A stretch of DNA of 64,000 nt, taken from Collybiopsis luxurians FD-317 M1. Lineage: Eukaryota > Basidiomycota > Agaricomycetes > Agaricales > Omphalotaceae. Made by a program: the position numbers and the translations under genes. The stretch is from assembly GCA_000827265.1 (NCBI GenBank), contig KN834819.1, forward strand, positions 62,001 to 126,000, read 5' to 3'. Shown here piece by piece: positions 19,111 through 43,689 of the stretch (position 1 is the stretch's first letter; each line of letters begins with the position of its first letter). Under the pieces are notes generated by a model, which searched no databases, was not told where the DNA came from, and saw only the letters and a list, made by a program, of their open reading frames with translations.

Positions 19111-19690
19111 CCTCCCCCGAATGGTGAAAATTTAAACCCCGCGCAAGCGCACAAATTTCCTGTTAGCACGCACAAAATTGTCTTCTAGCGCAACTAGATT
19201 AGTAACTATACACTAGCGATTACATGCATAGATAAAAATTTCTGTGTGCATGCGCGCAATATAGTTTACAAGTGCACTATTCGAAGGTGGAAAATCACTT
19301 AAATTTTAAGAAAACTACTTAGAGAATGACTCTTATAATATCCATGAAGTGGTTTGCAGAAGACCTTTGTCCACTTAAGTTAAGAAATGTACCTTCATTT
19401 GAGATAAGAGCCAAGTAACTCGAATGAAGTGTCAAAAATGGTAATCGGTTAAAATTCGGCTAGCTATTGCCGGAGTCCAGCCTGTGATCCATATTGCTCA
19501 CCCATCACAAGGCCTGGCACAAATCATCTTGTGATGTATGAGTAATATGGATCGCTCACATAAGAGACCTGGGCCCCTGGCAGATACCTCGGAAACGATA
19601 AACGTACTTAACGGTACCCGGTAACCGGTAAAAACAGGGTACGCTGATGGGACTGGAGAGGGCCCGCGACGGTACCTCTCTGACATAAGC
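19111..19690 (+). repeat. Left terminal inverted repeat of the element
   Basis: Aligns with the reverse complement of 43,215-43,689 over its full length. Shared blocks include AAGCGCACAAATTTCCTGTT, CTTCTAGCGCAACTAGATTA, CACTAGCGATTACATGC, GAAGTGGTTTGCAGAAGACC, CTCGAATGAAGTGTCAAAAA, TCGGAAACGATAAACGTACT and ACGGTACCCGGTAACCGGTA. By eye the identity is high, perhaps 85-90 percent. The left copy contains an extra hairpin of about 100 bases (see 19,470-19,565). Confidence 0.85.
19470..19565. repeat. Hairpin inserted only in the left terminal repeat
   Basis: The arms read GTGATCCATATTGCTCACCC and, reversed, GTGAGCGATCCATATTACTC, then both CATCACAAG, around a short loop (CCTGGCACAAAT). The right terminal repeat lacks this stretch: it goes directly from GGCTAACTATTAACGGGGCC to GGGCTATCTCGGAAACG. 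It is therefore a secondary insertion or local inverted duplication after the element was formed. Confidence 0.55.
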
Positions 19691-19789
19691 GCACATTATT
19701 GGTCGAATATCACTAGACAAATAGTCACTGTATTGATTGATTTAGTTTATACCCTAGGTGTATTAAAATGCTAGGGTATTATGATGCAG

Positions 19790-21725
19790 CCCTTTGAAGA
19801 CTGGATGTGAATGCAGACTAGAATTGATTTGAAGGTTTTTAAACTGGCAGCATAGGCAGGTGCACTTTGAATATGTCCTGAATTTAGATGCATCATTGTA
19901 AACTGTATTTACATGCAGATGAATTGTGAAAGTCTGTATCCAAAATCAGCCTTTCAGTAGGTTGCATTTGAATGTCACTTTCCATTTGAAGATCCTGCAA
20001 TCAGATGCAGTCTACAGTAAGCTGCATCTGGATGTAGGGGCACTGTGAGCAGCTACATTGAAATACAGCTTAGGAAAGAATGTATTTGTATGCAGAAACA
20101 TTTACAGCTGCTCCTGCATTGAAATACAGTTCACAAGAGACTGTATTTATATGCAGAAACTTTTACGGCTGCTCCTGCATTGAAATACAGTTCACAGGAG
20201 ACTGTATTTATATGCAAAAACTTTTATGGCCACTCATGCATTGAAATACAGCTCAAAAGTGACTGTATTTGTATGCAGAAACATTTACAGCTGGTTCTGC
20301 ATTGAAATACAGTTCATATACAGTTCATATACAGTTCATAAGAGACTGTATTTGGATGCAGAAACTCTTACAGCTGGTCCTGTATTGAAATACAGTTTAT
20401 AAGAGAATGTATTTGGATGCAGAAACATTTACAGCTGGTTCTGCATTGAAATACAGTTCATAAGAGACTGTATTTGGATGCAGAAACATTTACAGCTGGT
20501 TCTGCATTGAAATACAGTTCATAAGAGACTGTATTTGGATGCAGAAACTCTTACAGCTGGTTCTGCATTGAAATATAGTTCATAAGAGACTGTATTTGGA
20601 TGCAGAAACTCTTACAGCTGGTTCTGCATTGAAATACAGTTCATAAGAGACTGTATTTGGATGCAGAAACTCTTACAGCTGGTTNNNNNNNNNNNNNNNN
20701 NNNNNNNNNNNNNNNNNNNNNNNNNNNNNNNNNNNNNNNNNNNNNNNNNNNNNNNNNNNNNNNNNNNNNNNNNNNNNNNNNNNNNNNNNNNNNNNNNNNN
20801 NNNNNNNNNNNNNNNNNNNNNNNNNNNNNNNNNNNNNNNNNNNNNNNNNNNNNNNNNNNNNNNNNNNNNNNNNNNNNNNNNNNNNNNNNNNNNNNNNNNN
20901 TCATAAGAGACTGTATTTGGATGCAGAAACTCTTACAGCTGGTTCTGCATTGAAATACAGTTTATAAGAGACTGTATTTGGATGCAGAAACTCTTACAGC
21001 TGGTTCTGCATTGAAATATAATTTATAAGAGAATGTATTTGAATGCAGAAATGTTTAAAGCTAGTCCTGCATTGAAATACAGTTCATAAGAGGCTGTATT
21101 TGGATGCAGAAACCTTTATAGCTGCTCCTGCATTCAAATATAACTAAAGAAAGTGAATGTAGGAGGCATTCACAGCTGTCCTGTACTGAATACAGTTGAT
21201 ATGAGACTGTATTTGGATGCAGAAACTTTTACTCTACAGCTGCTCCTGCATTAAAATACAGTTCAAGAAAGATTGGATTTGAATGCAAGAGGCCTTCACA
21301 GCTGTCCTGCACTGAAATACAATCTCCATAAGAGACTGTATTTGGATGCAGAAACCTTTACAGTTGCTCCTGTGAATGGCAGGAAGCCTTTAGTACAGCT
21401 GTCCTGCAGAGATGTAGTTCACGAGAGACTGTATTTGGATGCAGAAACTTTTACAGCTATTCCTGCATTGAAATACAGTCTTTTCAACTGTATTTGGATG
21501 TAGAATTCTTTACTACTGCCCTGCATTCAAATACAGTTAGCTCCTCCTGCATTGAAATACAGTTCAGGGAAGGCTGTATTTGAATGCAGGAGGCTTTCAC
21601 AGGTGCCCTGCATCAAAATACAGTTCTGAAGAAACTGTATTTGTATGCAGAAATCCTTACAGCTGCTTGTATTAGAATGCAGGAGGCCTTTCCAGCTCAG
21701 GAAAAACTGTATTTGGATAGGCACC
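19790..21725. repeat. Left subterminal satellite array (61-bp units)
   Basis: The core is a head-to-tail repeat of 61 bases: for example ATGCAGAAACTCTTACAGCT recurs at 61-base spacing between 20,480 and 21,010. Each unit has a motif CTGTATTTGGATGCAG and, in opposite sense, CTGCATTGAAATACAG. Towards both edges the units decay and change length. Open frames reported in this stretch are artefacts of the repeat. The array contains a sequence gap at 20,685-20,900. Confidence 0.85.
20685..20900. other. Assembly gap (216 N)
   Basis: All bases are N. The gap sits within near-identical 61-bp units, so it probably marks a collapsed or unbridged satellite and the real number of units is unknown. Confidence 0.95.
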
Positions 21726-22034
21726 CCACAATAAACTAAGTGAACAAGTTGAGATTCACTTTGATTGTAGCAATATTATGTAGAACAAGCTCAAGATTCT
21801 AAAACTTAATGCAGTCTATGGGGTGTTGCATCTGGATGCAGGTGCTCTGTAACATCTTTCCAATAACTTGAACCATTCAAAGCTAGACATTGAAACTCAG
21901 AATTCACAATAGATTGAGTGAGCAGGTGGTCCCAAATGAGATTAGCTGTTGTTCTAGTGATATTGCAAGATAGTAAGATACAATATTCAAGGATTCTAAC
22001 GACTAGCAGAATGAGATAATACAAGATAAATGGA

Positions 22035-24159
22035 TCACAACGAGTATGGGATAGATGCCGCACGCCCAAAAGATTTCAGAAAGGTGTCTACAAAGAAGTT
22101 CGCTAGCTCTCGGTGGATACAGTCAACAAAGGTACGGAAGTTGTGAATTCGATTGTCAACAGGGAATGGCTCTGAAAGCACCTGGGGTTTCGAGCCACGC
22201 CAGGTGCACATTACAGCATGTAAAGCTTTGATATGTGGGACTCGGTCATCCCATGACTGTGACCCCAATCCTTGACCAAGCATAGCGAGATCAACATAGC
22301 CTACAGTACCGCACCAACAACGATCCAACATGTCTTGTCGCTGCAGGGGTGTCATACCACTGTTGTCCACAAACCGGTCCAGAGCCATAAGCTCATTCCT
22401 GAAATTCAATTCGCAGAGCTCCCAAAGTATCTCCCTAGTAATTTCGGCTGAAGGTAGACCTGTGATCACCGTGCCTTTCCAACTGACAGTTTTGGTAAAC
22501 AGATTTTCAACTCGAAGAAAAACATTGCTCTTTTCCAGGCCTTTTTCCAGCTGTTCACGTACTTCCTTTCGCCGAGCGGCACCCTTCGTGCCATCGTCCT
22601 GACTTAGATCGCTTCGCGCGCATACGTTCAAAAGTGTTCGCCATTGTTTATTGGAGAGCTGCAAAGGTGAGCACCCAGGATTCGACAAAAGGAAAAGAAT
22701 CAAATCTCTGATCCTTAGCCATCCAACAAACAACAGCCCTTTCTTCTGGTCATTTTCCGGCGAAAGAAGACAGCGAGCAGGAGGGAGCCAGAAGTTGTAA
22801 TGCCCTCCATCCTCGGGCCGAGCTGAGTGGTACCCTGCTAGATATTTCAGGGCCAGGATCCAATGATCCACCCCTGGTGGCATGAGTGGATGCGAGAACT
22901 CCATAAAAGGGTTCTTGCCGCCTTTTTCACTCGGTACTTTACGTCGTTCTGGGCGGGCATCTGTACGTAGCAATCAGGATGTAGTTCACAGAAATTGGTT
23001 GCGAATTTCGAAACCCGGACTTACATGGCACAAATCTTTCTGACTTTGACCCGTGTGGTCCCTCTGAAACTGAAGTTACCGCGTTCCGTAAGGAAAGAGA
23101 ACTCCGAGGCTCGTCCGATCCCAAAAGCAACGGGTACTGTAGTCGACTTCGCAGGTACCCTCCCATTCTGATGTACCGCTCAGGTTTAGCACATGCGCCC
23201 GAAAAGATGACAGGGTGAGGGGGGGATTCGTCCATACAATCTATGACCGTGTTCGATCGTAGATGAAACCTATGCTGATTATCCTCTCGGATAAAGGGTA
23301 CAACTTCGTCTATCCGAGCATTCGGGGAGTTATTAGCCAGACGAACCCACCAGACTGGAATCCCAGCATGAAAGAGAAAGTCCAGAGTTTCCAGATCCTC
23401 GGTAAACGCACCCATCACGTCAACTGCTTCGTGAATTCGTGCTCGCAGCTTGGCGTCCTTCCGTCGCTGCGTCCACTCTTTACCGATCCATCGTATTCTT
23501 GCATGTAACTCCAATGCCATGCGTTGAGCCCAAGCTACGCGTATGAATAAATCTGATCGAGAAGCTGGAAGTTTTAAACAAGCTAGAACGGTTTGGAGTT
23601 GCGAGCTGGCTTCTAGAACAAACCGGTCTTCACTGATGCGGTCACCGGTAACCTTTTTTAGTACCCTCAGGAAAACAGCCTCCAGACCAGCATAGAAAAC
23701 ATCATCCAGACATCCAAGCCTGCCAAGCAGACTTGTGGTATCTTCAGCAATGAAATGAGCAGCTGTTGGCTGAACCCAGCAGTAGTAATATGGATCATCC
23801 GGCACCATGTTAGGCCTCAGGATTAAGCAAAGATGACCAACGTATTCTGCGAACGGTTGAGGATAGTACAAAGGGTCATAAACCCCATAATGATTGTCTC
23901 GTTTCAGGCTGATCAAGATTTTTCCCAACGGGGGCAAGTATAACACATGGGTATTTGGGGATGTAACTAGGATATCATTTGGAAGAATATTACCAACCCA
24001 ACCATCCCTGGAGCTGAGTATATCTATTATTTGGGATCAGTTATATCCGACGAAATAACGAGCTATCTACCAACCTGTTTCGGGAGCCGCAAACTGCGTT
24101 AGTATAGATTTGTCACTCTCCGCCGCATCATACGAGATTTTCTGAGGCTGCAATGTCAT
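22035..24159 (-). CDS. Cargo protein of 667 aa, family unknown
   Basis: Three exons join in phase: 24,159-24,071, 24,013-23,025 and 22,960-22,035. It starts MTLQPQKISYDAAESDKSIL. Recognisable stretches are YYYCWVQPTAAHFIAEDTTS, FIRVAWAQRMALELHARIRW, DVMGAFTEDLETLDFLFHAG with IPVWWVR, HYNFWLPPARCLLSPENDQK and DRCWCGTVGYVDLAML. I recall similar 'AFTEDL..LFxAGIPVWxVR' proteins as a large family of hypothetical proteins in mushroom genomes, often near transposons, but I cannot name a domain. No signal peptide or membrane helix; composition suggests a soluble, mainly helical protein. It is the first gene inside the left repeat array and is transcribed outward toward the left end. All three frames are open, so the gene may be active. 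Confidence 0.75.
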
Positions 24160-24694
24160 GGGTTTGCTGCAATGAACTTAGATATGAATACAGAGGAGAA
24201 AGGAGAAATGAAACTAACCGTAAGTTAAAGTCAATGACAGCTGAACATCGACTCCAGAACTCAATCTGGGAATCGTGAGGGACAGACGGAGGCTAATCCG
24301 ACTATCACGACAGCGGAGATTAATCCGGCTGCCAGAGCTATGAAAAAGTGGGCGGTCGGGACTCGGGATGCTTGCTTTTGCCGTGGTGGTAGACTGTCAC
24401 TGGTGGATGGTCGTTAAGCACCCGTGGAACGTTCACGTGGTATTCGCTGGGCGCCTGAAACGTTGGTGTCTTCTTCTTCACCACTCATGTTGCGGGCTAG
24501 TCCCAAATTTGTAGAATGTACGGAATATCGAGTAGCCTCGAATTCATGAGTGTTACTTTCGGGTTAGTCCTGAATGGAAAAACAATGTTGCTCTCTGGGG
24601 CAGTTTCAAGAATGAGCCATTTACCAGGTTTCGCGCCGAGCTTCGGACTCCTCGATGACCCCGAATTGCGACCAGAGATAAAATGTGAGTAGTG

Positions 24695-26255
24695 ATGGCT
24701 CGCCGATCATTCATTATGCCTCCGCTAGTTTCTGGTAATAATACGGGACCATTAGCTTTCGAATTACTCCAGAGAGTGGCCTCGGAATCGTCTTCTATAC
24801 ACGAAATTGCTTTGCTTTCCCGGGTTTGCAAATATTTTAACGCAACTTTCAATGATCACTTATACAAATCTCCTTCGGTGTCTGCTCTGCCTACTCTCGC
24901 CCAAAGTATTGCCGACAGATTTCCTCTCGAAACTCCTCACCCCGCTTCCTTCGTCCGAAACCTTACTGTTGGGCCCAAGTCCACATCTGAAATGGTTATC
25001 GCTGCCCTAAAAAACATCGAGGTCTCAGGAAAACCCTTAATGGGCCTCTTTATTTCTTCCTCGACCTTCTCTCTGGCCGATGTCATGAGATATCCTTTGC
25101 CCGAATTTCTGGGATCTCTTCATTGTCTTCGCTTGCGCACTCCTTACCCGAGGATGCCTCAGGGCCGAGCCTTGGAAATTGCGGTAAGTCTATTGCTTTA
25201 ACTTCTATGAGTGTACGAGCACTAATATAATAGTAGCGTTCATTATGTGCTTCCTCCCTTACAGTTTGTAAGCTGGCCTTTAACACAAAAACCTCTCCAG
25301 GTACGATTACCTCTGTTTTTCCTGCTCACTCAGCTAATTTCGGTTCATTGTAGGCAACTATCTCGTCATTGTTGATCTCTTGCGGGCTCTTGTTTTGACG
25401 AACCTCACCTATTTTAACTTACACATCCCCGAACCGTCCTTTGTCGACGATCATGAGCATGTACTCGCCGAATTGCTTGATAATCCGACATTTCGTTTCG
25501 AGAGTCTTACAAGCTTGACTCTGCTGGTGGACATTGACATGATATCTTTCGACAAGTTTTTCAGGCAACACCTTGGTTTGACAGAGTTGCGTTTCACTGG
25601 AAGCCCTCGATTGTGTGATGTGACTGACCTCTCGTCGAATGAAGTTTTGATGGACCTTCGTGCATTTCACGGTGGCCTTGATGACTTGATTGCACTATCT
25701 CGTCGTCCTGGATGTCGTTTGCAGGCAGTGACTGTCACCGATATCAGCGTCTCTTGGGCTCGAAATACTATGCATCAAGTGCTTGCAAACTTACCCAACC
25801 TCAGGCACTTGGCTGTACAGGATGCATCTGATAATCTGGCAGGCTACACCACAGTAACTTTGGTGGACATGAAGCGCAGCTGTCCTGATCTTGAACTTAT
25901 CGACTTGATCCTCAATACACAAGCACTTGGCCGGATAGGTCTTGTAATTGAACTTGTAAGTCCACTTATACCTTGGTTGACCTTCTGCATTGACTGATAG
26001 TTATCTCCCCAGCATCTGTCATCCTTCATCCTCCGCCTCATTAATGGGTTCCAGAATCTGAGCCGCGCTATCATGAGGGTCTCCGCCGAGCAACTACCCT
26101 CGGTGAAGAACGCCATAGATGGTGCGATGGAAAAGGCCATCCCGTTCTTCGGTCATATTGACAGACAAATTGTATTCGAGTTGCGTGTAGTTGATACGTT
26201 CATGCCGGTATGGGAATATGTATACAGGAAAGGACCTCGCGAGTTATCGACCTAG
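24695..26255 (+). CDS. F-box protein with degenerate leucine-rich repeats
   Basis: Exons 24,695-25,183, 25,237-25,300, 25,354-25,955 and 26,013-26,255 join in phase, 465 aa. The F-box-like segment is at residues 15-55 (LAFELLQRVASE..EIALLSRVCKYFNATFNDHLYKS). The rest has LRR-like runs: LVLTNLTYFNLHIPEP, FESLTSLTLLVDIDMI, LGLTELRFTGSPRLCD and LPNLRHLAVQDASDN. Such proteins act as substrate receptors of SCF ubiquitin ligases; mushrooms have hundreds of F-box/LRR paralogues. It may start at 24,695 or at the next in-frame ATG 24,716. Transcribed divergently from the 667-aa gene, with about 530 bases between starts. Whether it belongs to the element or is captured host DNA is unclear. Confidence 0.8.
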
Positions 26256-26847: not shown

Positions 26848-29588
26848 CTACATGTTGACGTTCATCTCGGTGTTCTCAGCAGTGTCCGCAGCAGTGTCCG
26901 CATCCTGCTTCTCCGCCGCCTCCCTCAGTTTGAGCCATTCCAATCTTTGGTACATCCTCGTTATATGTTTTACTTGCCTTTCAATGGGTGATATGGGGAC
27001 TACCCATTGTCCTTCATCGTTCTCTCCTCTTTCCCAAATACAGTCCAAGTTCCAAGCCATATCATTTTTGATCTGCCGAAAAACCAATACCCTTTGGCGT
27101 GGTAGGAGTCGCATTCCACACCAGCTCTCTTCAATTTGGTCTTGCTTTGGTTCCCCGGCTGGTCCCATTTTTTCGCAGAGAATCTTGCCAGTCTTGTAGA
27201 AGTAGAACTCCATCAGTGCAGTGTCGATGCTGCATCCGCAGTGAAGAAACCCAGGTTCTGGTTTCTCTTTGGCCAGTACGGGGCGGCGGGGGATTCCAGT
27301 TGCCTTATATCCCTTTACACTTCCAACCTGGTTGTGCTGCTTCTTATTGCGCGTGAAAGTGTGAGCCAGGCACCGAGTCGTCCCATGATCGCTCGTTAGT
27401 ACCTCCAAGCTCAATCTTTGGCATGTTGTCGCCAGCTGCGGGCAGTATTCGGACACTTCTCTTGCTCTGGCCTTGACACTCTTGGGTAGGGGATTTGCGT
27501 CGGGATCCAAGCACCACTTCTTCCACGCCTCTTCTCCTTTGCCTATCCCATAGTTAGCTCGATGACTGGAGAAAAAGCGCAAATCAACCTACTCAACCAT
27601 TTTAGAGTCATTGCTTTCGCGACTAACTCCTGCCCTATTGCTTATAATCGGAACATGCCACCATTACTACATAGGTAAGACTCACAAGTTGGTTTCTTTG
27701 TCGACTTTTTGACAGGTTTTGCATCCTCCTCTTCTTCCCCACTAGCATCTGCACCGGAACTCTCGTCCTCAGTTACGTCGACATACACTGCCTCCCCTGG
27801 ATCTGGTTGGTTAATGAATAATACAGTTTAGTTGCAACGCGTACGAACCGTGGGACTCTTTCTTCTTCCCCTTCGAGGATTCCGGTGCAATGGCAGGGAC
27901 GGTGTTGCGCTCTTCCTTTACTTCTTCATTATCTATTGGTAAGTGTGAGCTTCTATTAACCTTGCTTGTGGCATTTGCTAACCTTCACCCTCAGATTCGG
28001 TATCAATCCCGACTCTCCTCCGCTTAGTGCCTGCTCCAAATTAAACAGTAAGTGTGGCTCCCCTTCACGTATGACATTGCTTACTGGTGGTTGTAGCTTG
28101 CTTTCCTCCGGCTCGTGTTCTCTTCTGGCCTTTTGGTTGCTTTGCAGAGATCTTTCCCCTCTCCAGCTTAACATTCAAGGAAATGGGTACTGTGTCGAAG
28201 GGTTCGCTCTTCACGTCGAACGGTGGAAGTGTATGGAGCTCGATATTGTTCTGTCGCGCAATGGCGTACATCTGCTCCAGCGCTGTCTCGACTCGCCCTC
28301 CACTGGCTCCCTGTTTGGCTTCCATGGAGTGTTCTTGGGAAGCATTCTCGTTTCCAGTGACCGACAAAACCTTTGCCGCAGGGTCATCAAGTTGGGTTAC
28401 ATTTTCGTTCGTAGTCGGAATTGATGTGGGAGAGACTTCGTTCTTAGTGGCTGTCGGAATCTCAGTGGTTGTCAGGATCGTGGTGGGAGGGACAACAATT
28501 GCGGCAGATTCCTCATTGCCATTTGATTCTATCGCTGTGGCGGGACCGGTTAAAGTGGAGCCGTCGGCTCTGGCAGTCTCCTGGACCTCCTGCTCCCGCA
28601 ACACAGAGGATTGGCCGTCAGATGCAGGCGTCGGCAGCCTGGGAATTTGAGGTTCCCAAATACTCTTCACAGAGCCTATGTCTCTGGAGAGCCTGGTTGG
28701 GGGATGGGCACTAGTATTGGGTAGTGTAGGTGGAGTAAAAGGCACCATAGTAGGGTCCAAAAATCTCTCCATGACTGAGGAAAAACGTCGCTCGGTATCC
28801 AAAGGTCCACGTGCGAATATTGCGCCTTCATTGGCTACAGGGGGCGCTTGATCGACGGTGAAGGAGGGGGCAGACAGAGGAAGGCTGGAAGGTCCATCTT
28901 TAGGAGCTGTTGTATCTCCGGACGCTGTGTCAAATGGAGAGGAATCATTCTCGGGCTTGTGGTTTTCCTCATTGTTGACTTGATGGGATTCTTGCTCGAC
29001 GTTGGAGGAGGCGACAGATGGAGGAAGATCAGATGGTCCGGCTTTGGCAGCATCTGTGTCTCTGGAGCCTGCCTCAACTGGAGGGACGGGTGCCGCATTC
29101 TCCGAAGCCAATGTAGACTCACCTGTCATATGAATCAAAAATTCAGCCTTATAGAATATAAAGAAGATAATACTTACGGCTTTCTTTCTCAGTCTGAGAC
29201 CCTTGGGGAAGATCTTCTGCTATAGGAGATAGCGGAGACGAGGCTGCAATACCACAAATTGAGACATTTCGGCGCTGAACGAATGAAAAAGAATGCCTAC
29301 GGCGACGACCCTCCCCCTCCTGACTCTCCAACTCCTTCCAAGCGTTTCTAGCGTCTTGAAGCTCCTGCTCCCATTTTTCAATATTTTTTTCCCTCGCCTT
29401 CCAGCCATTCGCTGGCGCGGTAGGCAGCTCCGCTCTCTTTTTCGATAAGGTGTTCGTCAGTTTCGCGATCTGAATGCTCAGCTCGGTTTTACTGGGAGCT
29501 GTACAGATTCAAAGTCAGCTACAGAGGACAGGGTCTAGCGGTCCTTACCAATACTTTCAGTCTTCACATCAGATTTCGAGTTCTGCAT
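26848..29588 (-). CDS. Cargo protein of about 780 aa: coiled coil, disordered middle, folded C-terminus
   Basis: Seven exons fit in phase: 29,588-29,549, 29,498-29,178, 29,122-28,085, 28,030-27,983, 27,932-27,849, 27,802-27,686, 27,542-26,848. The N-terminus (MQNSKSDVKTESIAPSKTEL) leads into a coiled coil (REKNIEKWEQELQDARNAWK). The next 400 residues are low complexity, rich in Pro, Thr, Ser, Glu, followed by a Lys/Arg-rich block (TKRRRVGID, SSKGKKKESHG) that could be a nuclear signal. A segment VYVDVTEDESSGADASGEEE looks like a SUMO-interacting motif with acidic tail. The C-terminal 230 residues (GEEAWKKWCLDPDA, FLHCGCSIDTALMEFYFYKT, RLLPRQRVLVFRQIKNDMAW) look globular with several Cys, but match no domain I know. 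A nuclear role is inferred from the composition only. Confidence 0.65.
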
Positions 29589-29869: not shown

Positions 29870-30967
29870 ATGGCGAGAAAGAAGAACAAAAAATCTCAAA
29901 AGCAGTTGTCTAATTTGAGTGACAGAGACAACACGCAGAAGCCTCGCAAAGATTACAACTATTATTGGAGGTACGTGCAAGTCCTAAGCAAAATGAATCT
30001 CTTCTGAAATTCCAATGTAGCCACGCAGAGGTGCGGCGAGCGCAAAGCCGCAATTATGCTCGGGAAAAAAGGGCAGCGACGTGCAGCAAAAGAGAACATT
30101 CCTCGATGGCACAAGTCTTCTCTTCCACTGTCTGACTCTCCTCTTCCACTGTCCGATCCTCCCCTTCCGACGTCTCCGCGATGGTCAGAGTCTCCTCCTC
30201 CTCCCCCATCTGAGAATCCTCAAATCAGTCGTTATAGCACTATACCCATGGAGGGGCTGGTTCCAAGCGACGACAGCCATCGATTGCATGACATACATGA
30301 CATCCTTCCAACGTATAAGCTCTTTCGTGAGCTCCTTGACCTTCAAGGTGACTATGAACAGTGGGTTACTCAAGCTGATTGTGCCACCCCTGTCACTCCT
30401 GTAGCTGCTATTAAGCAACATGTAGCTGAAGCGGGACTTCTTGCTTGTAAATTACACAACCTGCTCCGGTCGCATATCCCCGCAGATGACTATGACCTGT
30501 GTGCCATACACTCATCTGTATGCTCTATGCAGTTAGCTCTTGGTACTCGCCGAGCCATTATGTGCTTCAATTGTCTTTCCACTCTCGATCATCACCTAGA
30601 GTGTCCCGCATGGGATGAGCCGATGGGTGTTCTACCAATTGGAACCGATGAGGACTCACTGTGGCTCTTCGAGTGGACACTGATTCCTCTGCAAAAGAAA
30701 ACCACAGCGTATCTGGCTGAATGGGGAGTACTGGGTATCGAGACGCAAGTTCGACGGTACAGTCTTATTGCATTACAAAGGGCCGAAATGGACGGGGACA
30801 CTGTGTATCAAGAGTGGCGACAGTTTTTTGAGCTCCCCCAGGAATATTTCACTGATAAACGAGATACTTTGGCATTTTTCCAAGAGGCCTGTGCATCCGT
30901 GTTTGCATTGGGGGAGGCCCTCGTGAGGATAGGTTACAAGTTGAAGGTCCTGGAGAAGAGGGCGTAG
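29870..30967 (+). CDS. Cargo protein with basic N-terminus and Pro/Ser-rich linker
   Basis: The main open frame (30,056-30,967, 303 aa) reads GKKGQRRAAKENIPRWHKSS, then a Pro/Ser repeat (LPLSDSPLPLSDPPLPTSP), then a folded-looking part: YKLFRELLDLQGDYEQWVTQ, CKLHNLLRSHIPADDYDLCA, MCFNCLSTLDHHLECPAWDE, SLWLFEWTLIPLQKKTTAYL. A likely first exon begins at 29,870 (MARKKNKKSQKQLSNLSDRD) and can be joined in phase by 29,974/30,029. The better donor at 29,971 gives a short frame (SHAEVRRAQSRNYAREKRAA) that soon stops, so a frameshift is possible. No family recognised; the basic N-terminus could bind nucleic acid. Confidence 0.55.
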
Positions 30968-32101: not shown

Positions 32102-32269
32102 TTGTTTAAAAGGGGCCTAGGCAGTACCAGGTAGCGCTGAAGCTGTACTAGCGTCTAACTGCACACTAAGCGCTGGCACCTCTTCTCTCAAACCACCACC
32201 CACCTTTTTTGGTAAGTGAGCTCATCCTGCATTCTAGTGCAGGCCTGGAAACACCTTTCCACAGATCAT

Positions 32270-32510
32270 CAAGCTCAAGACTTTGTCTAGTTCTGGAGAC
32301 ATCCAGACTGGCTCAGACTGCGGATTGACTTCCAAGTCTTCTTTCCAATGACGGATGACTCTGTATTGGTCATATCTACCTCGATATTTCAAGCTCAAGA
32401 CTTTGTCTAGTTCTGGAGACATCCAGACTGGCTCAGACTGCAGATTGACTTCCAAGTCTTCTTTCCAATGACGGATGACTCCGTATTGGTCGTATCTACC
32501 TCGATATTTC
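32270..32510. repeat. Direct tandem duplication of about 121 bp
   Basis: TCAAGCTCAAGACTTTGTCT..CATATCTACCTCGATATT occurs twice in a row with four or five differences. On the minus strand both copies read SEPVWMSPELDKVLSL and YDQYRVIRHWKEDLEVN. It lies directly behind the transposase stop and may be a duplicated former C-terminal exon or 3' region. Confidence 0.7.
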
Positions 32511-32555
32511 TACCTCTACCTCGATATCACTATCAGCCATTCTTTTGGAGGTAAT

Positions 32556-34357
32556 TCATGTCTCCTGGCCTTTTTTGAAAATTTCCCTGATCCGGAGCCG
32601 GTTCCAGACCCACAGGAAAACCCAGCAATACAGAATCGCTCGCTCTTGGCCCATATAACTCACGGATTTGCGAATCCTGGCCAGGCCGCTGTTTCCGCAT
32701 TCTGCAGCACTCGAATTGATTTTTGCCAAAGCGGGGACTATGTCTGCATAGGTCTTCAAAAAAGACGCATTCGAACACTTTGTATGCCCTGTTGCGTGAA
32801 ACCCATCCACCACGAATAGGGTATCGGCGAAAAAGTCTGGCTCCCGGGTCCAACAGTATGGGCCCAGGGCGCATGCGTAGTCGTAGATTATCCTTTCCGG
32901 AGCCTTTGGCCACCTTGTGATGAGTGCGGAGAACACGTTGTTATGTCCCTCGGACACAGGTATACAATGAAAACCATAACAAACGCTATGGCTGCACCAG
33001 CAAGCCATGATCCCACCTGTAAGTTGTTTTTTTGAGTATTCGTCGTAGTATTTGCAGCACATTTCTGATTTCTCCTTGTTCACTTCAGCTTTCCCGTCGC
33101 GAGGAATGTAGGGATAGATTGGCCACCTTCGTATTTGTGGAAGCGTATACCAACAGCCGGTCTATTTTGCACTGTGAGTATCCTCTTTGTAGCTAGCCTC
33201 ATACGCTCACCTTTTCCCAGTCTCGAATCTCTGTCTCTGTTGGTTTATCTAGGATTGTCGGCTTTGGCAATAGTCTGAGAGGGACACTTTCCAATGCAAG
33301 CACCCGTGTTAGAACGTCGTCGGCTCTTCCACACATCCATTGTGCCACACCGATGATATCTGAATGAAACACTTGTTCTCGTTGGTTGTATTCGATTTCC
33401 AAAACTTTATATAGGGCTGGTATTTGAACAAGAGCTCGGGCGTTAGGGTACGTTGGATGGGCAACGAAGACTTGCAAGAGCTTTAGTGCGGATCGATTAA
33501 CGGCTTGTACTGTGGATTCCTCCGCACTGAACTTATATTCCTGTAAATGGCTCCAATATATCAACAATAACGATACTACTACTCACCAACTGGAACAATC
33601 TGAGGTGTTGAATGCGAGGTTTCCAACTCAAATCATCACGTAGAGCGCTAAATCCTAAAGTTCTTCGGAAGAGGTTTCCAAGAGGCTCGTTCTCTGTCTC
33701 GAGCCACTTGTGCAAGTCAAAAAATGCATTTCGCCTTGCCAGAGCACCCTTGAGCAGTTTCTGCTCGTTCTTGTCCCCAAGCGGAATCTTGCTATCGAGT
33801 CCGCTGCCCAGCCAGTCTCAAAATTGTTTTCGCTGCGATCTATCGCGGAACCACTCCTTTTGTGAGCACGGGGCACTGGAACGTACGGCGGAATCTGCGG
33901 CCACAACTGTGGGAGGCTCTAGATGATTGTTGACTTGCTTGCGTCCAAAGGAAATGGATACCCCGTCCCATATTACGTTCTTCGGCGTCGTCTTACACAA
34001 CGGACATGCTTTCATCTCATCGAGCTGTGGCTCGAGGTTCATAAGCCGGACGAAGGAGAACCATGCTGCTCTAAACAATTCCCCCCCAATAAACGGAATA
34101 CTCTCTTTATTGTATGCTGTCTCCCCGTATCGGCGCACGATCTGTTCTATCCAGGGATCTATGGGTGTTTCGGAGCTCGTGAAGGCACTTATATATTCGG
34201 AGAAGAGTTCATGAGTGAAAAGCCGCCGGTTATTGTAGTTGAATAGTCCGATGTTTCTGGTATCAGGGCCTATGTACTTGCGACTGGCTACAGGACATCT
34301 CGGGCAAATCTGTAGCTCAATGTCCACCCTGAAAGCTTGGAGAACAGTGTACACCAT
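32556..34357 (-). pseudogene. KDZ-type DDE transposase with CxC5/CxC6-like cysteine cluster, frame-broken
   Basis: The N-terminal part (34,357-33,818) has a zinc-binding-like cluster: LQICPRCPVASRKYIGPDTR, GLFNYNNRRLFTHELFSEYI and MKACPLCKTTPKNVIWDGV. Then the frame shifts near 33,805-33,830 with no splice donor present. The rest is open in three exons: about 33,800-33,587 (KGALARRNAFFDLHKWLETE), 33,540-33,211 and 33,161-32,556. The catalytic region is recognisable from KDZ transposases: LTGGIMACWCSHSVCYGFHC, RIIYDYACALGPYCWTREP, FVVDGFHATGHTKCS and INSSAAECGNSGLARIRKSV; the Asp in YDYA, the Asp in VVDGFH and the Glu in AAECGN are likely the DDE residues. The upstream end of the cluster domain (34,360-34,500) is also out of frame. 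It transposes DNA by cut-and-paste in known relatives; this copy is probably inactive unless the break is a sequencing error. Confidence 0.82.
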
Positions 34358-34632
34358 GGTTTGTCATACCACGATTGGACGCTCCAGATCGAAAAACGAT
34401 TGCCCTCCATCTCTACAGTCGCATGAGGAGGACTCATCAAGTTTGAGTATCGCGGGTGGCTCTCTGAGTGGAGGAGGTCAGCAGTAATTCGTTTGTTCTT
34501 GAGGAAGCATAGCCCAGTGTGGGGGAAGAATCGGTAAGTAAGAAATGGCTCTATGGCTATTATATTCCCTCTGATTGGCTTGTATTTTCAATAGTCAGAA
34601 AGATGTATTTAAAAAAACCCGATAGTGCTTAC

Positions 34633-35718
34633 AGATATCTATGTTGACCGAACTATCATCGACTTCAACTTTCTCGTCATTTTCACTGTCATCGTCGTCC
34701 AAGAAAACACCCCGCATTGATTTCCGAGCTACTGAAATATGGATGCACGCCGATCCATCTTTGGCGCATTTCCATACCCCATCCCCTCCGATGGAGGCTT
34801 CGTAGCTGACCATAGCTCTGTGAGCCATTCCCAACTCGTCATTCAATTTTGCAATGGAGAAGTGATGTATGGCCAGTATCCCACCCATATCCGTAATTTC
34901 CTTCCGAAACAGGATTACACAGTTGCACAATCCTATACATTGTTCTGGTCAATGCCTACAATTAAGGATGACTATTGTTGCACACCTGAGCTTGGTTCTT
35001 TCTCTGTGAGGCGATGTATTAGGTGTTGGGCAAAAAATCATTTGTGGATGCACTGAAATTCACTTTTAGGACATGTACACACCATCACACTGCTTGATCC
35101 GTGTACAGATGCATCGAAATGATACCAACGGTCCTATCGACAGTCAGTAAATGTGGTTTCATCTAATTGGTGACCGCTCACCGTCCCTTCTCCTTTTTGA
35201 CTTGACCAGCCTTCAACTGCAAACATCATGCCATGAAGGTGAATAAATCCAACGCATCCCAACAAAACCGCTTCTGTGTAATAGGCAAAGTCTTCCGGGT
35301 CATAATTGGTCGTGGGCGGAGGCACATATCGACCAGGAGCTCCAAATCCATTGTCTGCCGTCGATGAAGATCTTTCAGGGCTTGAAATAACGCCGATGTC
35401 ATTGACTGGGAGGAGAGATTCATCGATCGGGTCTTTTGTTGCTGCGTTTTCTTGCCGTGGAGGACCCTCAGTTAGTCGTTGGGGGGAGCCGTGTCCTAAC
35501 TCATGAGCCGGTAATTGGTGGGTGCCTTTTGCGACTCTCCGGCCCCGTTGAGCGCGTCGCCTTACCGGAGGCTTAATAGCCCGCATCTTTTTCTGGGGAC
35601 TGTAGGCGACATTGGATAAACCCCTCTGTAAAGGTTCTAAGTTCCCTTCAAGCTCAGCAGATTCGCGAGCGCACAAAGGAAGCGGGGAGGGTGACCTCTT
35701 TGCTGAGTTTCTACGCAT
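34633..35718 (-). CDS. Cargo protein, basic disordered N-terminus, family unknown
   Basis: Exon 1 (35,718-35,182, 179 codons) begins MRRNSAKRSPSPLPLCARES, continues with an Arg/Lys-rich block (KPPVRRRAQRGRRVAKG, a possible nuclear signal) and ends with YYTEAVLLGCVGFIHLHGMM..EGWSSQKGEGT before a GTGAGC donor. A second coding stretch ends at 34,633 (GGILAIHHFSIAKLNDELGM, VSYEASIGGDGVWKC, FLDDDDSENDEKVEVDDS). The junction between them could not be fixed in phase, and the 3' end beyond 34,633 is unknown. It could be a neighbour or a 5' partner of the transposase unit. No domain recognised. Confidence 0.5.
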
Positions 35719-35812
35719 GGTGAGCTGACTGAGAGACTGAGAGTCAGCGAGAGCCGAGAGGCGCTCAACAAGCTATATAAGTTTCGGTATTCCTTTCCTC
35801 CTTCATACTATC
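35719..35812. promoter_or_regulatory. Bidirectional promoter with palindromic TATA box
   Basis: Only 94 bases separate the divergent starts at 35,718 (minus) and 35,813 (plus). The centre holds CTATATAAG at 35,773-35,781; CTATATAG-like symmetry lets it serve as TATA box on both strands. The plus-strand ATG is 32 bases behind it. Confidence 0.5.
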
Positions 35813-37462
35813 ATGGCTCCTACCAAATCTCCTCGCAAATCTCCCCGGAAGCCCTCGTCAAAAAGTCAAGCTTCTCTTCGAAAACCTTCTGCAAAGCAAA
35901 CTCAACCCAAATCTCCATCGCACGCACCTGCGGCAAAGAAGAGTCGTGGTCCTCAGCACTGTAAACAGTGTCCAGGTCGCCCTCTGCGCACATCCCTCGA
36001 TTGCATACACTCAAAGGCCTACAGCAACTTGGTGAGACTTCACATTGTACTCGCAACCCACTAATAAAGTAATAAATGTATTGTTCTTGTGCTTCTAGAG
36101 AAAAGCGGTCCTGCTTCTTAACATCACCATCCCTCCAGATGCCAGCGCAGTTCATCTTCAAGCCCTGCTCTCTTGTGGTGGAGCCGACGGGCAAGATTCA
36201 ACCACCACTCATGGAGCTCCCATTCCCAGTCGTGATGTCCTCCACCCGGAGGCTGCTGCTGCTATGATCCATTCAGCTGCTACACATGGGATGACTCACG
36301 GAGCTCCTACGACAACCCAGAGTAGTTCCCATCCCGAGAGTACTATTTCCCCCATTTGTCCAGCTCAAGCGATGAGCTCACTGTTGGGTCTTAGTACCCG
36401 TTCACCTTCAGACCCTTTCAGTACGGTACGCCTTCCGGCTTTGTTGTCAAACAATTTCACTGACCTCAAGCCTCAGCCGGGTTTCATGACAAATGTTTTT
36501 GATCATAATGGGGTCCAATACACCCAGGTGGGTTCTCAAATTTTAACCCTCAACTCAGGCTGACTGGTCTCTACTTTTAAGGTGTATGATCCAGCTCTCG
36601 TCCCTCCTGAGTACACCCCGGCGGTTGCTTCACGATCATCTGGAACCACCTCTTCTACCTCCACGAGATCAGGACCATCTGGACAAGTCTCTCCTGCCTC
36701 CATAGGTTCAGGATCATCCGGTTGAGTCGCACTTGCCTCCTTGAGTTCTGGATCTTGTGCAACCATGCCACCTTCTGTGCCCAAGAATCTTCGAAAGCAT
36801 CGCCGCACTAGAAATGAGGACAACGAGGACAACGAGGACGATGATGACAACGAAAAAGAAGATGTTCCCGAGGGTGACTTTGGATACGTCGAAGGCCTAG
36901 GTCGTGGTTCGGTTGAATACAGTAGGTGTTCATTCATTTTTCTCTATTCACAATTCTCATTACAGTACCTGGTTAGAACTGGCTAGGACACATCCTCTCC
37001 CCTTATTTTTGTCTGATACCACAAAAAGTTCACGTCGGTATGGGCGGGCGATGCCGCTTTTGTTTAAGCGGGTCAGTAATGAAACAAGTTTCATTTGGCT
37101 GATAGTCTTGTACTGAATGATCAGCTTAGCTCGAACATCTCTGCGTTGAGACCGGCTGTTGGATGTATCTCGTAACTGCCTTACCCAATGGTCATTTGGC
37201 ATTCCAGCATTTCACCTCTCAACGGTTGTTGGATGAGCCTGACCAGTCGCTACTTGATAATCTGCATCGCACAGCGGCCCGTGCTGTTACTTCGCTCCAG
37301 CGTTCACGTCGTATGACCACTCAGGAACTGGCGGCCGACAATCATGACAAGGAACTAGAGAATGAAGAACTGCGGGCTCAGAAAGCAGCTCTCGAGAAAG
37401 AGCTGAAGCAACAGCGAGAGCTACTGGGTCGCCTGCAAGACTCACCAAACCGAAGTGTCTAG
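35813..37462 (+). CDS. Cargo protein: histone-tail-like N-terminus, coiled-coil C-terminus, one in-frame stop
   Basis: Five exons fit in phase: 35,813-36,031, 36,099-36,527, 36,582-36,925, 36,966-37,071, 37,130-37,462, 477 codons. The start is a Lys/Ser/Pro-rich tail with KSPRKSPRKP repeats, followed by a small Cys/His group (CKQCPGRPLRTSLDCIH). The middle is Ser/Thr/Pro rich; then comes an acidic run (NEDNEDNEDDDDNEKED). Exon 4 reads LPLFLSDTTKSSRRYGRAMP. The end is a coiled coil (LENEELRAQKAALEKELKQQ). A TGA at 36,722-36,724 interrupts exon 3 (expected SSG-R-VALASLSSG); the frame is otherwise open, so it is a nonsense change, a CGA to TGA transition in the simplest reading. The composition points to chromatin or DNA contact, by inference only. 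Confidence 0.6.
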
Positions 37463-38374: not shown

Positions 38375-38968
38375 ATGCCAGATACTTCATGTCCTCATAG
38401 TTTGAGTGCACTTCTTGAACCCTACGAAGGCTTCAGCCCTCGCGTGCGCGGGGCGATCTTGCCTCATTTCATGGGATGTTATGTGACTTTACGCTGCAAA
38501 TTGATCAAGGTGAGTTGCTTGCTGGCACCTGCACATCGTCGGCTCACAAGACCAAAGGACGGTCAGGAGTTTTTGCAAGTACTTGCTTGTGATGAATTCT
38601 GTGTCAAAGTATCTATGATTATGATACAAGACCGTAAGGTAAGCTCTGGAACCTCACTCCATCTTAAACACTCAGTTTACTCAACAGCCGATGACGGAGT
38701 TTCTTGAAATCCTTGGCAAATACTGCAGCGACGATGGGGGTGTTCTGCTCGCAACAAGGATCACAAATATCGGGAACTCTATTGGTCAGTTCAAATTGTC
38801 GACTATTCCCCTTTTGTTCATTGCAGAACAGATATGCGTATGGAGAAGTCCTTCATTGATGTAATTCATCGTGAACCATGGGCGACGGATATTTTCAATG
38901 TGCACGCCCAACACGACCGTGCTGTCATTCAAGCACTAGAGGAGGGTAATGCAGAGGGTGGCGCGTAA
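38375..38968 (+). CDS. Small cargo protein of 149 aa, unknown
   Basis: Exons 38,375-38,509, 38,558-38,638, 38,688-38,784 and 38,832-38,968 join in phase with introns of about 48 bases. Stretches are MPDTSCPHSLSALLEPYEGF, ILPHFMGCYVTLRCKLIK, FLQVLACDEFCVKVSMIMIQ and IDVIHREPWATDIFNVHAQH. Soluble and mainly helical. Family not recognised. Confidence 0.6.
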
Positions 38969-39108
38969 CCGATATAAAGATAAAGCGTTTCATCGGATTA
39001 CACGTTTGTTTTGTAGTAGAGATGTATATTTGGCCATCTAATCACTTGCAACACTTCAAGTCGGCTGCCGCCGCCCTAAATTCAACGTCTTTTGAACCAC
39101 CATCCATT

Positions 39109-39690
39109 ATGGATTATGAAGAGCCCATTCCGACGCCCATTGAAGATTTCTCCGTCGACCATACCGACACATCGGCAGCACCTTTGGATGTTAACACTGA
39201 CAGTCCCGGAGAGCCTTCGGACATTCACAGGCGTGTAGCTTTACTCAATAATATCAGGCCTGACTTCTCCGATGCCAATTTGACCTGGGAAGATACAAAA
39301 AATCGAGATCGCTCCCTAGATGGCATTGCCACAGAGACCTGGTCTGCGCTTCAACGTAGGTACTTTTTTAATGCTAAATGTCTCGGCTGATGATCTATCG
39401 TAGTCTGGCGGTGCACTGTGGAGGCTCATGCTAAATGTGAGCGCCTTCCATCCTTCACCGGTCAGCAGGTTCAACGACGCATTTTTGGGATTGTTAAGTC
39501 GAAAGAGTTGTTGAAGAAAGAGAAGGAAGATTTGCATCATGAAGTTGGTGCTATGGAAGCAGAATTGGCGAGAAAAATAGATCGGGAGACGGAGATTAAT
39601 GATGAGCTCAAGTCGCTGCTTACAGCTGAGCGAGAGCTTAAGGACTTGGCCTTAATTGCTGAAGCCTTGCTGCGCGACATTGAATATTAG
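39109..39690 (+). CDS. Small cargo protein of 177 aa with C-terminal coiled coil
   Basis: Exons 39,109-39,355 and 39,404-39,690 join in phase. The N-terminus is acidic (MDYEEPIPTPIEDFSVDHTD); the middle has TWEDTKNRDRSLDGIATETW; the C-terminus is a heptad-rich helix (LLKKEKEDLHHEVGAMEAEL, RKIDRETEINDELKSL). An upstream in-frame ATG at 39,022 would add 29 residues. Function unknown. Confidence 0.6.
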
Positions 39691-39953
39691 CCGCCTTTCT
39701 AGCATAGAATCTAATGGCTTGTGAATACATGTCTATCTTGCGAAAATTGCCTTGCCTGACATAACGCACTCGCTCGGCGCGTTTCTGATGTACCTGAAGC
39801 TGCCTAAAACTTGGAAATTTGTCAAGATAATGACCTTTCATTTGCTATCCGTAACTATCAAAAACCCGCAGGTAAGTTCTGTTTGAAGTATACCGACGAG
39901 CTCAGATATAACAATAGTCTTGAAAAGCCGGCATAATCTTTGAGGGTTATTAG

Positions 39954-40436
39954 ATGTCAGCTGTTTCTGAAGGCAATCAGCGTGCTCAAAGTGGTACAAA
40001 CCCACCTGAGAACATTAGTGATCTCGCACAATATGCTGCAAACTTTCTCTTTGCAGCTGCAGCGACTGATCCTGCGCCCGGGACACCGTATCGTTCAGAA
40101 GTAATGCCTTTAATCCCTGACAATTTACCTGCGGCCAGCACAGGCGATGAAGAGGAACAGGCGGTCCGCCAGCTGCTGGAACGGATCAGGGAGAGTCCGA
40201 CTGGCTACGACATCAACAGGGAGACCCCGGAGCGACGTGCCCTTTGGAAGGAGTGCATCCTTCGCCTGTTGAGGCTCGAAGTGCTGGAGTTAACCCTTTG
40301 GCAGTCCCATTATCTACACTTTCCCTTGTTAGTTGCGGAGGTATGTCTTGTTTACTTTGTGGGTTTGAAGATTTATCACTAAAACAAGTTCTGGTAGAGC
40401 ATGCGTATCAGGGAACACAACGAAAAGTATGCGTAA
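39954..40436 (+). CDS. Small cargo protein of 141 aa, unknown
   Basis: Exons 39,954-40,340 and 40,398-40,436 join in phase. It begins MSAVSEGNQRAQSGTNPPEN, has an acidic centre (AASTGDEEEQAVRQLLERIR) and a hydrophobic stretch late (LELTLWQSHYLHFPLLVAE), ending SMRIREHNEKYA. Last gene before the right satellite array. Confidence 0.6.
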
Positions 40437-40559
40437 TTTTATAGCTGTCAATGGAGAGACTCAGTGAATTATTTACAATATGTACCGACGTGTTTGAATT
40501 TAATTCTACTAGGCTATCTCGATAAGCTACAAGTACAGATGTTATTCCGCTGATGTCTA

Positions 40560-43030
40560 GGTGAATCTGCATTCAAATAGAGCTTGCTGTAGATTGCATT
40601 AGATTGCAGGACCCTCCAAACATGAAGAGTATTTAAATCTAAATGCGAAAGATATTACCTGCATCCAAATACTGCTAATTATAGAGTGCAGTATCCTGCC
40701 AATGGAACAGCATTGAAATGCAGCTGACCAGTGAGCTGTATCTGCATGCAGGAGATACTGAGAGAGTGCCTGCATCCAGATACTACAGCTGGCTGGAGAC
40801 TGCAGAACATATTTACATCTAGTCAACCTACTGCCTGTATCTGTATGCTAGAAATATTTAAGAGATCTCTGCATCTGGATACAGCTGAGCTTCAGGTTCA
40901 ATTTCAGGTTCATATCATTGATGTCTACCAGTGAACTGTATCTAAATGCAGGAGTCCAGACACAAATGCATCCAAATTGGGGACTGTATCTGAATGCAGG
41001 ACATATTCATAGTGCATCTACATCCAGATACAGCTTACTACAGTCTGCATCTGAATTCGGGAGCATTCAAATGAAGGACAGTATTTAAATACAGCCCCCA
41101 ATGATACTGTATCTGAATGCAGGATATATTCACAGTGCATCTGCATCCAGATACAGCTTACCATAAGGCTGTATCTGAATACAAGAGACTTTTTCAGAGC
41201 ACCTGCATTCAAATAAAGGGCAGTATTTAAATACAGTCTCCAATGATGCCGCATCTGAATGCAGGACATGTTCAAAGTGCATCTGCATCCAGACACAGCT
41301 TACCATAAGCTGTATCTGAATACAGGAGACTTTTTCAGAGCACCTGCATCTGAATTCAGGAGCATTCAAATGAAGGACAGTATCAAATACAGTCCCCAAT
41401 GATACTGTATCTGAATACAGAATATATTCATAGTGCATCCGCATCCAGACACAGCTTATCATAAGCTGTATCTGAATACAGGAGACTTTTTCAGAGCACC
41501 TGCATCTAAATTCAGGAGCATTCAGATGAAGGGCAGTATTCAAATACAGTCCCCAACAATACTGTATCTAAATGCAGGATATATTCATAGTGCATCTGCA
41601 TCCAGATACAGCTTACCATAGGCTGTATCTGAATACAAGAGATTTTTTCAGAGCACCTGCATTCAAATGAGGGGCAGTATTTAAATACAGTCCCCAATGC
41701 TGCTGTATCTGAATGCAGGACATATTCATAATGCATCCATATCCAGACACCGCTTACCATAGGCTGCATCTGAATCAGAGCTCCTCCAAACAGAGAACTG
41801 CATTCAAATGCAGCTTACTGAGAGCCTGTATCTGGATACAGGATACCTTTCCAGAGCACCTGCATCTGGATTCAGGAGACTTTTCTAGAGCACCTGCATC
41901 TAGATACAGCTGACTGGTATAGCCTGTATTTGAATTCAGGAGCCTTCAAAAGAAGGGCAGTATTCAAATACAGTCTCCAATGATGCTGTATCTGAATGCA
42001 GGACATATTCATAGTGCATCTGCATCTGAATCAAGCTCCAAACAGAGAACTGCATTCAGATGCAGCTTACTGGTACCTGCATCTGGATTCAGGAGCTTCC
42101 AATTAATAAGCAGGATGTAAATGGTGCTGTGTTTGAATGCATGGCATGTTCTGTGTCAGTATTCAGGTGCAGGATTCCCTGAATGAAAAGTTGTATCCAA
42201 ATGCAGGATCCCTAGCAGACTGTGTTTAAATGCAAAAGAATTTGATAGTGTACTTGCAGTCCAATACATCTTGCTGTAAAGATTTGTATCAGTACTCAAA
42301 TGCAGGATCCCGTGAATGATAGATTGTATTCAAATGCAGAAGAATTTTATAGTTTACCTGCATCCAAATACATTTCTCTGTAAAAAGCTGTATTCAAGTG
42401 CAGGATTCCCAAAATGAAAGATTGTATTCAAATGCAGGATCCCGAGTGACTGTATTTGAATACAAAAGTTGTATCAGTATTTAAGTGCAGGATCCCCTAA
42501 ATGAAAGATTGTACTGAAATGCAGGAGCCCTCACAATACTGCATTTGAATGCAGAAGAATTTTAGAGTATACCTGCATCCTAATACCTCTTTTTCACAGA
42601 AAGATATATTAGTATTCAAGTGCAGGATTCCCCGAATAACAGATTGTAATCAGTTACAGGATAAAAGCTGTATTCAAATGCAGGATAACCAACAGACTGT
42701 ATTTGAATGCAGAAAAATTTATAGTATACCTGCATCCAAATACATCTTGCCGTAAAAAGTATTCGAGTGCAGGATCCCCAAGACACTGTATGTTAATGCA
42801 GAAGAACTTTATAGTATACCTGCATCTAAATACAACTTTCTGCAAACTGCATCCGAATTCAGAGGCCTCCAAATGGAAAGGGTCATTCAAATGCGGTACC
42901 CAGTGAAGCTGTATTTGAATGCAGTGGGTATTGATAAGGCACCTGCATCCAGATGCCACACAGTGTATGTAGAAGCTTCCAATACCCTGCATTTAAATTA
43001 CCTGCACTGATATGCAATGTTTTGAGGCTG
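40560..43030. repeat. Right subterminal satellite array (composite units)
   Basis: Units of about 120-170 bases contain CTGTATCTGAATGCAGGA, CATATTCATAGTGCATCTGC, ATCCAGATACAGCTTACCAT and AGACTTTTTCAGAGCACCTG in fixed order, with clear copies starting near 40,985, 41,108, 41,255, 41,405, 41,563, 41,705 and 41,988. From 42,100 to 43,000 units are shorter and more varied. The recurrent element is the near-palindrome CTG(C/T)AT(C/T)(T/C)(A/G)(A/G)AT(A/G)CAG, the same as in the left array. Confidence 0.85.
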
Positions 43031-43214
43031 CATTGTAATACCCCAGCAGCGTAATGCTGCCAATTGTCAACTGAACCATAACACCTATCTTGCTGCATTT
43101 GGCTATTCTTGTAATTAGATACTGTCTCTCAAATCGATCCCTTTGTTTAAGCATGATCTATTGATATCGTCCACTGGAGTAATAAATAGACTACACTAAT
43201 GAATGCTTATATTA

Positions 43215-43689
43215 CTGAGGTCCCGTCCCGGGCCCTCTCTTGTCCCATTAGCGTACCTTGTTTTTACCGGTTACCGGGTACCGTTAAGTACGTTTATCGT
43301 TTCCGAGATAGCCCGCCCCTGGGCCCCGTTAATAGTTAGCCGAATTTTAACCGGTTACCATTTTTGACACTTCATTCGAGTTATTTGGCTTTTATCTCAA
43401 ATAAAGGTGCATTTCTTAGCTTAAGATGGACAAAGGTCTTCTGCAAACCACTTCATGGATATCATAATAGTCATTCCCTAAGTAGTTTTCTAATAACATT
43501 TAAGTGATTTGTGCCCTTTGAATAGTGCACTGGTAAACTGTATTGCGCGCATTCAAACAGAAATTTATCTACGCATGTAATCGCTAGTGTATAGTTACTA
43601 ATCTAGTTGCGCTAGAAGATAATCATGTGCGTGCTAACAGGAAATTTGTGCGCTTGTGCAGGGTTTATTTTTTCACCATTCGGGGGAGG
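43215..43689 (-). repeat. Right terminal inverted repeat of the element
   Basis: Reverse complement of the left repeat; ends TTCACCATTCGGGGGAGG at 43,689. It lacks the hairpin found in the left copy. Inner border is around 43,215, where similarity to the left copy fades. Confidence 0.85.

Follow-up and report, generated by a model that had tools for sequence, protein, structure and literature searches.

Does a stretch of more than 20 kb in the Collybiopsis luxurians genome, with a transposase of KDZ type, several other genes and long inverted repeats, represent one mobile element, where does it end, and do its genes belong to it? An earlier note on this DNA had described positions 19111-43689 as a 24.6-kb unit with terminal inverted repeats (TIRs) of ~0.5 kb and internal genes carried as cargo. 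The stretch analysed here, referred to as the window, is 64 kb long (C71:62001-126000), and positions are those of the window unless preceded by a C number. Searches were made in this single genome (64.3 Mb, 200 contigs); those for genes did not handle introns and provide lower bounds.

Edges of the element and the older repeat around it

The following features were recognised at the two ends.

19111-19577, reverse strand: left part of a pre-existing foldback, oriented relative to locus L011 on C33
19568-19577, forward strand: left target-site direct repeat CCTGGGCCCC, a duplication of 8-10 bp
19578-43317, no strand: giant KDZ element of ~23,740 bp, delimited by the direct repeat at both junctions and an empty-site match; edges ±~2 bp within the 10-bp repeat
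19585-19701, forward strand: left TIR, 117 bp, inverted pair at 87 %, with relatives at C7 and C43
19984-21600, no strand: left subterminal satellite with 13 perfect CTGYATYYRRATRCAG palindromes; it holds a run of N (20685-20900)
40860-42930, no strand: right subterminal satellite with 20 perfect CTGYATYYRRATRCAG palindromes
43194-43310, reverse strand: right TIR, 117 bp, of the same inverted pair (87 %)
43318-43327, forward strand: right target-site direct repeat CCTGGGCCCC, the same word as at the left junction
43328-43689, reverse strand: right part of the same foldback, oriented relative to locus L011 on C33

Long inverted repeats flanked the unit as originally described, 19111-19701 and 43194-43689 being similar in four ungapped blocks of 87-94 % identity. 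Their outer ~0.47 kb turned out to be the halves of a pre-existing foldback, so that the real TIRs shrink from ~0.5 kb to ~117 bp. When 19111-19480 was searched against the genome, 12 matches were obtained, those outside the window being on C33, C88, C42, C37, C35 and C8. Oppositely oriented matches on one contig were encountered for the window pair, at C33:540925-541648, where the arms are separated by ~0.1 kb, and at C37:509932-511231, where three matches lie within 1.3 kb; C88, C42, C35 and C8 displayed single matches. The innermost 117 bp had four matches in the genome, namely both window copies, C7 and C43. Since, outside the window, the outer repeat and the real TIR occupied disjoint places, two separate repeat families meet here. 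This also accounts for the failure of the search proposed earlier for paired hits of the outer repeat: apart from the window, none of the 12 matches formed a pair 15-40 kb apart, as 19111-19480 belongs to the separate foldback family.

The word CCTGGGCCCC occurred twice in the 64-kb window, both times at an element junction. As a control, random pairs of 20-nt windows were drawn 4000 times; words of at least eight bases were shared by 20 pairs, of at least ten by two and of at least 11 by none. When the flanks were joined through one copy of CCTGGGCCCC, the resulting 870 bp aligned with the reverse complement of the intact C33 foldback over 762 bases, 691 of them identical; the alignment ran ungapped across the junction and had few indels elsewhere. 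The forward orientation of C33 scored lower (507 vs 571), as expected for a foldback element. The direct repeat at both junctions and the empty-site match thus moved the edges from 19111 and 43689 to about 19578 and 43317, and the length is approximate at the run of N within the left satellite. The whole 23.7-kb unit was inserted as one piece into an older foldback of ~0.83 kb, duplicating a target of 8-10 bp, which bears out the proposal that it moved as a single element.

Read by eye, the window foldback displayed no clear target duplication of its own, and L011 (C33, about 540923-541690) was a ~0.77-kb foldback with an imperfect 8-bp direct repeat. Another arm of the foldback family was located inside a giant element on C42 (L071 1848-2220, corresponding to C42:170347-170719), between its left satellite and gene A.

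The subterminal satellites reported at both ends were recovered as palindromic arrays, the satellite repeats themselves being detected at 20056-21372 and 40982-42838. All 33 window copies of the 16-bp palindrome CTGYATYYRRATRCAG were inside the unit, 13 on the left and 20 on the right; 49 sites were found genome-wide, against one for a reversed-pattern control. With up to two mismatches, 108 sites were counted inside the unit as first reported and none outside it in the 64-kb window. Both TIR matches on C7 and C43 had the palindrome within about 0.5 kb. At these places (C43:120032-121086 and C7:1245397-1245875) the real TIR and palindromes were present and a second end was not detected; they are read as remnants or short derivatives of the giant-element family.

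To the right of the element, three consecutive ORFs on the reverse strand (45073-45579, 47149-47523 and 49039-49362) shared a similar stretch, SRTGLRTR.QQIALFLQ, and constitute a small host gene family.

Transposase and accessory genes

Gene models for A, B, C, D, the transposase and one exon pair of the F-box-like gene were obtained with our own simple gene finder and are approximate.

22035-24159, reverse strand: gene A, 669 aa, three exons (own model); no Pfam family
24689-25994, forward strand: F-box-like gene; weak F-box hit (E=0.0059, below cut-off); in six of six window-type copies
26848-29129, reverse strand: gene B, 669 aa, five exons (own model); conserved C-terminal domain
30056-30967, forward strand: gene C, 303 aa, single exon; no Pfam family
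32556-34948, reverse strand: KDZ transposase gene; CxC4 at 33821-34363, KDZ core at 32559-33161, probable N-terminal exon at 34598-34948
35134-35993, reverse strand: gene D, 254 aa (own model); upstream of the transposase on the same strand in 27 of 32 loci

The transposase was recognised as suggested, cysteine cluster included. It matched Pfam CxC4 (PF18717) with E=2.1e-35 and KDZ (PF18758) with E=4e-5, the latter at 23.9 bits and hence under the Pfam cut-off of 26.6. PF18758 was found at E<=0.01 in all 13 cores tested (best 5.9e-7), which comprised the window and 12 of 26 loci selected as stop-free and long enough. Genome-wide, all 29 CxC4 hits were at these transposase loci. The window locus was not among the 96 matches of a genome-wide Pfam KDZ scan, and profile comparison with other KDZ proteins of the genome was weak (probability 35 %, 79 columns). 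By its sequence, the transposase belongs to a divergent KDZ type and bears a cysteine cluster of the CxC4 kind. The 96 Pfam matches belonged largely to another KDZ type and many displayed stop codons.

The YD and the E of SSAAEC were invariant in 13 of 13 cores, and the upstream D of IWDGVSI was present in 24 of 27 locus rows, in which two places were counted twice. Candidate D, D and E residues were assigned from motif alignment by eye, the second D alone being also indicated by the weak profile comparison. All 78 pairs of cores had dN<dS; dN/dS was 0.04-0.14 in the 14 least divergent pairs, dS being above 1 and near saturation beyond the closest ones. The transposase cores are thus under purifying selection. 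Twelve cores were 67-73 % identical to that of the window, and many hits at transposase loci contained stop codons, attributable to introns or decay. Copies on C114 and C60 were 96.7 % identical over 2.7 kb, which suggests recent activity. Near these two copies, matches to gene B (C114:81877-82239 and C60:117593-117955) fell within open frames 3428 and 3327 aa long, respectively. Among viral contigs, the transposase exon matched two weak loci with 31 matched residues. A 120-bp tandem duplication (97 %) was seen at 32269-32510, immediately past the transposase gene's 3' end.

At least eight further multi-exon genes had been announced. Five could be defended (A, F-box-like, B, C and D), C being a single-exon gene; the figure of eight was not confirmed, and the other ORFs, located at 36-40.4 kb, are uncertain as genes. 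Pfam was run on 38 of the 41 stop-to-stop ORFs of at least 100 aa inside the element, those crossing the run of N being left out of the 41. CxC4 alone exceeded its cut-off in these 38, and their weak hits included no tyrosine recombinase, DNA polymerase or reverse transcriptase. For genes A, C and D, Pfam gave no convincing match. Searched at full length, gene A had no relative in the protein database; its C-terminal exon had ten hits, one of them taken by convention as the window's own protein (100 % identical), two to Collybiopsis luxurians and seven to entries devoid of organism label, while the gene B exon had one match, a metagenome protein. Profiles of A and B gave no matches to PDB sequences. 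Structure models were poor (pLDDT 58.3 for the C-terminal half of A and 36.9 for B), and Foldseek with the A model (pLDDT 58.3) returned 76 matches at E<=10, none of them at E<=0.001.

Other copies and the conserved gene core

Matches to the transposase and to A, B and C were grouped by script into 32, 38, 32 and 21 clusters, respectively, window included, and neighbours were sought within 22 kb. Around the 32 transposase clusters, A, B and C were found together at 18, A and B only at six, B only at two, B and C at one, A only at one, C only at one and none at three. A was therefore present at 25 and B at 27 loci, and one or both were absent from eight; the probability that an A cluster lies close to any one transposase cluster by chance was estimated at 0.026 (~2.6 %). 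Gene D was detected within 3.5 kb of the transposase at 27 loci, invariably upstream and on the same strand (27 of 27); outside the six window-type copies its matches were for the most part confined to short C-terminal segments of about 30-110 residues.

Two gene orders were encountered. In the window type (C71, C32, C81, C55, C56, and C50 without A), A and B were on the transposase strand, with A about 10.2-10.9 kb off on the downstream side. In the second order the transposase lay on the opposite strand, and A was found upstream of it at a distance of about 12-17 kb. The F-box-like gene had eight genome matches, six of which fell in window-type copies; five of these six were between A and B, and that of C50 adjoined B. 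The second order displayed two weak matches only, on C23 and C2, between A and B.

Ends were inspected at four of the 32 transposase loci, namely the window, C50, C42 and C55. C50 (366-389 kb), whose transposase is 68 % identical to that of the window, carried satellites in inverted orientation and remnants of the TIR at each end; AAGAAAAGCAC flanked it on either side, with about 21.5 kb between. Gene A was absent from the stretch where it was expected. C42 (166-193 kb) displayed an inverted repeat (TIR) of ~100 bp at 77 % identity, outside satellites built on another motif; the word CAAAAAGG stood on either side, with about 26.7 kb between. Direct repeats at the window, C50 and C42 were thus ten, 11 and eight bp long, each compatible with eight bp. 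C55 had a palindrome array and weak TIR similarity on the A side, and no satellite or TIR in the 10.3 kb examined on the transposase side.

The family consists of 24 loci, window included, that hold the transposase with A and B in two orders, and C, D and the F-box-like gene occur at many of them. The label of cargo does not suit these genes: as they recur around the transposase in most of the 32 loci, A-D and the F-box-like gene are mostly genes of the element instead of one-off cargo, and look like a conserved element core, not random passengers. The locus is very probably an autonomous-looking KDZ transposon of CxC4 type, ~23.7 kb long, with ~117-bp TIRs and palindrome arrays, nested in an older repeat and belonging to a multi-locus family.

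In the mechanism envisaged for it, the DDE transposase would use its CxC4 zinc cluster, and possibly a helper protein, to bind the TIRs and the palindromic arrays, pair the distant ends, excise the whole unit and insert it by a staggered cut; the proteins of A-D and the F-box-like gene may help to assemble the ends or counter host silencing. A more specific version is tentative, and we lean slightly against it: an undescribed Agaricomycete lineage of giant CxC4-KDZ elements with an obligate core of six genes (transposase, D, C, B, F-box-like and A), whose accessory proteins would work with the transposase and bind the arrays so as to bring together ends separated by more than 20 kb, and whose F-box-like protein would remove a host silencing factor.

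The best surviving rival, in our opinion unlikely, holds that the accessory genes are passengers that play no part in transposition and were kept by host benefit or chance. The copy on C50, devoid of A, agrees with it, as does the restriction of F-box-like matches in the second order to two weak ones. The recurrence of A, B and D at 25, 27 and 27 of 32 loci speaks against it, and so does the dN/dS of gene C, about 0.16-0.20 in the two of five pairs with finite dS, although such evidence separates a helper role from a host benefit poorly.

A composite origin, in which two neighbouring smaller elements or end copies trapped a host gene cluster and moved it once, later segmental duplications spreading it, is highly improbable. 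It would be favoured by the loci with A and B and no nearby transposase hit (C26, C50 at 224 kb, C60 at 18 kb, and C185 at a contig end), whereas target-site duplications at three separate sites, the deep divergence between copies (67-73 % identity to the window for the 12 cores) and the recurring gene order fit repeated transposition of a standing unit. Equally little credit is given to a KDZ element with 0.5-kb TIRs (19111-43689) that took up unrelated host genes in one capture: inverted arms 87-94 % similar and several inner genes that lack transposon annotation would suit it, but these arms occur elsewhere without the element and fold back on themselves in C33, the edges are set at 19578 and 43317 by direct repeat and empty site, no direct repeat was seen by eye at 19111 or 43689, and the genes recur with the transposase at most loci.

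Relation to known elements and significance

As a nested KDZ transposon with its own gene core, the window element was compared with published systems, and the claim that its class is undescribed in this form could not be maintained. In the available text of PMC12477816, KDZ elements reach 30.3 kb in Ectocarpus, where many giant families carry extra genes, a 31.7-kb KDZ element is active in Chlamydomonas, and fungal KDZ elements often bear accessory genes. The algal giants share with the present family the KDZ superfamily, a length above 20 kb and extra genes. The window family differs in being of fungal CxC4 type and in having the same approximately five accessory genes across many copies; no gene core common to copies was found reported for the algal elements in the accessible part of that source. 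Both giant algal KDZ elements that carry extra genes and accessory genes on fungal KDZ elements are already on record.

KDZ1-3 of Cryptococcus neoformans, as described in the accessible part of PMC12810828, are 9.2-11 kb long, with TIRs of 139-241 bp, a CxC1 cluster beside the KDZ domain, and target duplications of eight bp (KDZ1) or 4-8 bp (KDZ2 and KDZ3). They have in common with the present elements their fungal KDZ nature, TIRs, target duplication and a cysteine cluster next to the KDZ domain; in contrast, copies here are 21.5-26.7 kb long, of CxC4 type, and display long satellites and a multi-gene core. KDZ elements of Marasmius oreades, whose TIR motifs are characterised in the supplement of PMC8290104, are also from an Agaricomycete and may overlap the present family.

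Fungal TET-bearing Kyakuja, Dileera and Zisupton elements moved a non-transposase gene along with the KDZ transposase; according to the accessible text, Zisupton and Dileera make 8-bp target duplications, and Kyakuja 7-bp ones without TIRs (PMC12730594). The present elements carry several unrelated genes instead of one, and no TET/JBP match was found in the 38 of 41 ORFs of at least 100 aa, a scan that may overlook a spliced gene made up of short exons only, or a highly divergent protein of PE type. Their TIRs (~117 bp in the window, ~100 bp on C42) and duplications compatible with eight bp are a feature of the Zisupton/Dileera type.

Starships of Pezizomycotina are likewise giant multi-gene fungal elements, which in the sources available use a tyrosine recombinase; the window element has a DDE-type transposase instead, and the scanned ORFs included no tyrosine recombinase. 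A Starship would have its recombinase near one end; here the modelled gene nearest the left end was A, to which Pfam assigns no family. Nor did any of the 38 of 41 ORFs match the Pfam families expected of a Maverick/Polinton (DNA polymerase B, retroviral-type integrase and capsid), so the reported absence of Starship recombinase, Maverick genes and reverse transcriptase held for these ORFs. In Pleurotus, the text available of PMC7641404 mentions CxC5/CxC6 inserts that lack a recognised KDZ gene; by analogy these could be similar elements with a divergent transposase, which is taken as a lead only. No description of a CxC4-KDZ element with the present gene core was found in titles and the beginnings of abstracts, with subscription journals mostly outside reach.

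The nested insertion with its readable empty site is clean proof that a DDE element this large moves as one unit. At about 24 kb each, the 24 loci would amount, by our own estimate, to roughly 0.6 Mb of the 64-Mb genome. Genes A, C and D, for which Pfam offers no convincing family, would be labelled host 'hypothetical proteins' in an annotation; should they belong to the transposon, part of the unassigned gene content of mushroom genomes would be explained. The conserved core makes the need of KDZ elements for helper proteins testable.
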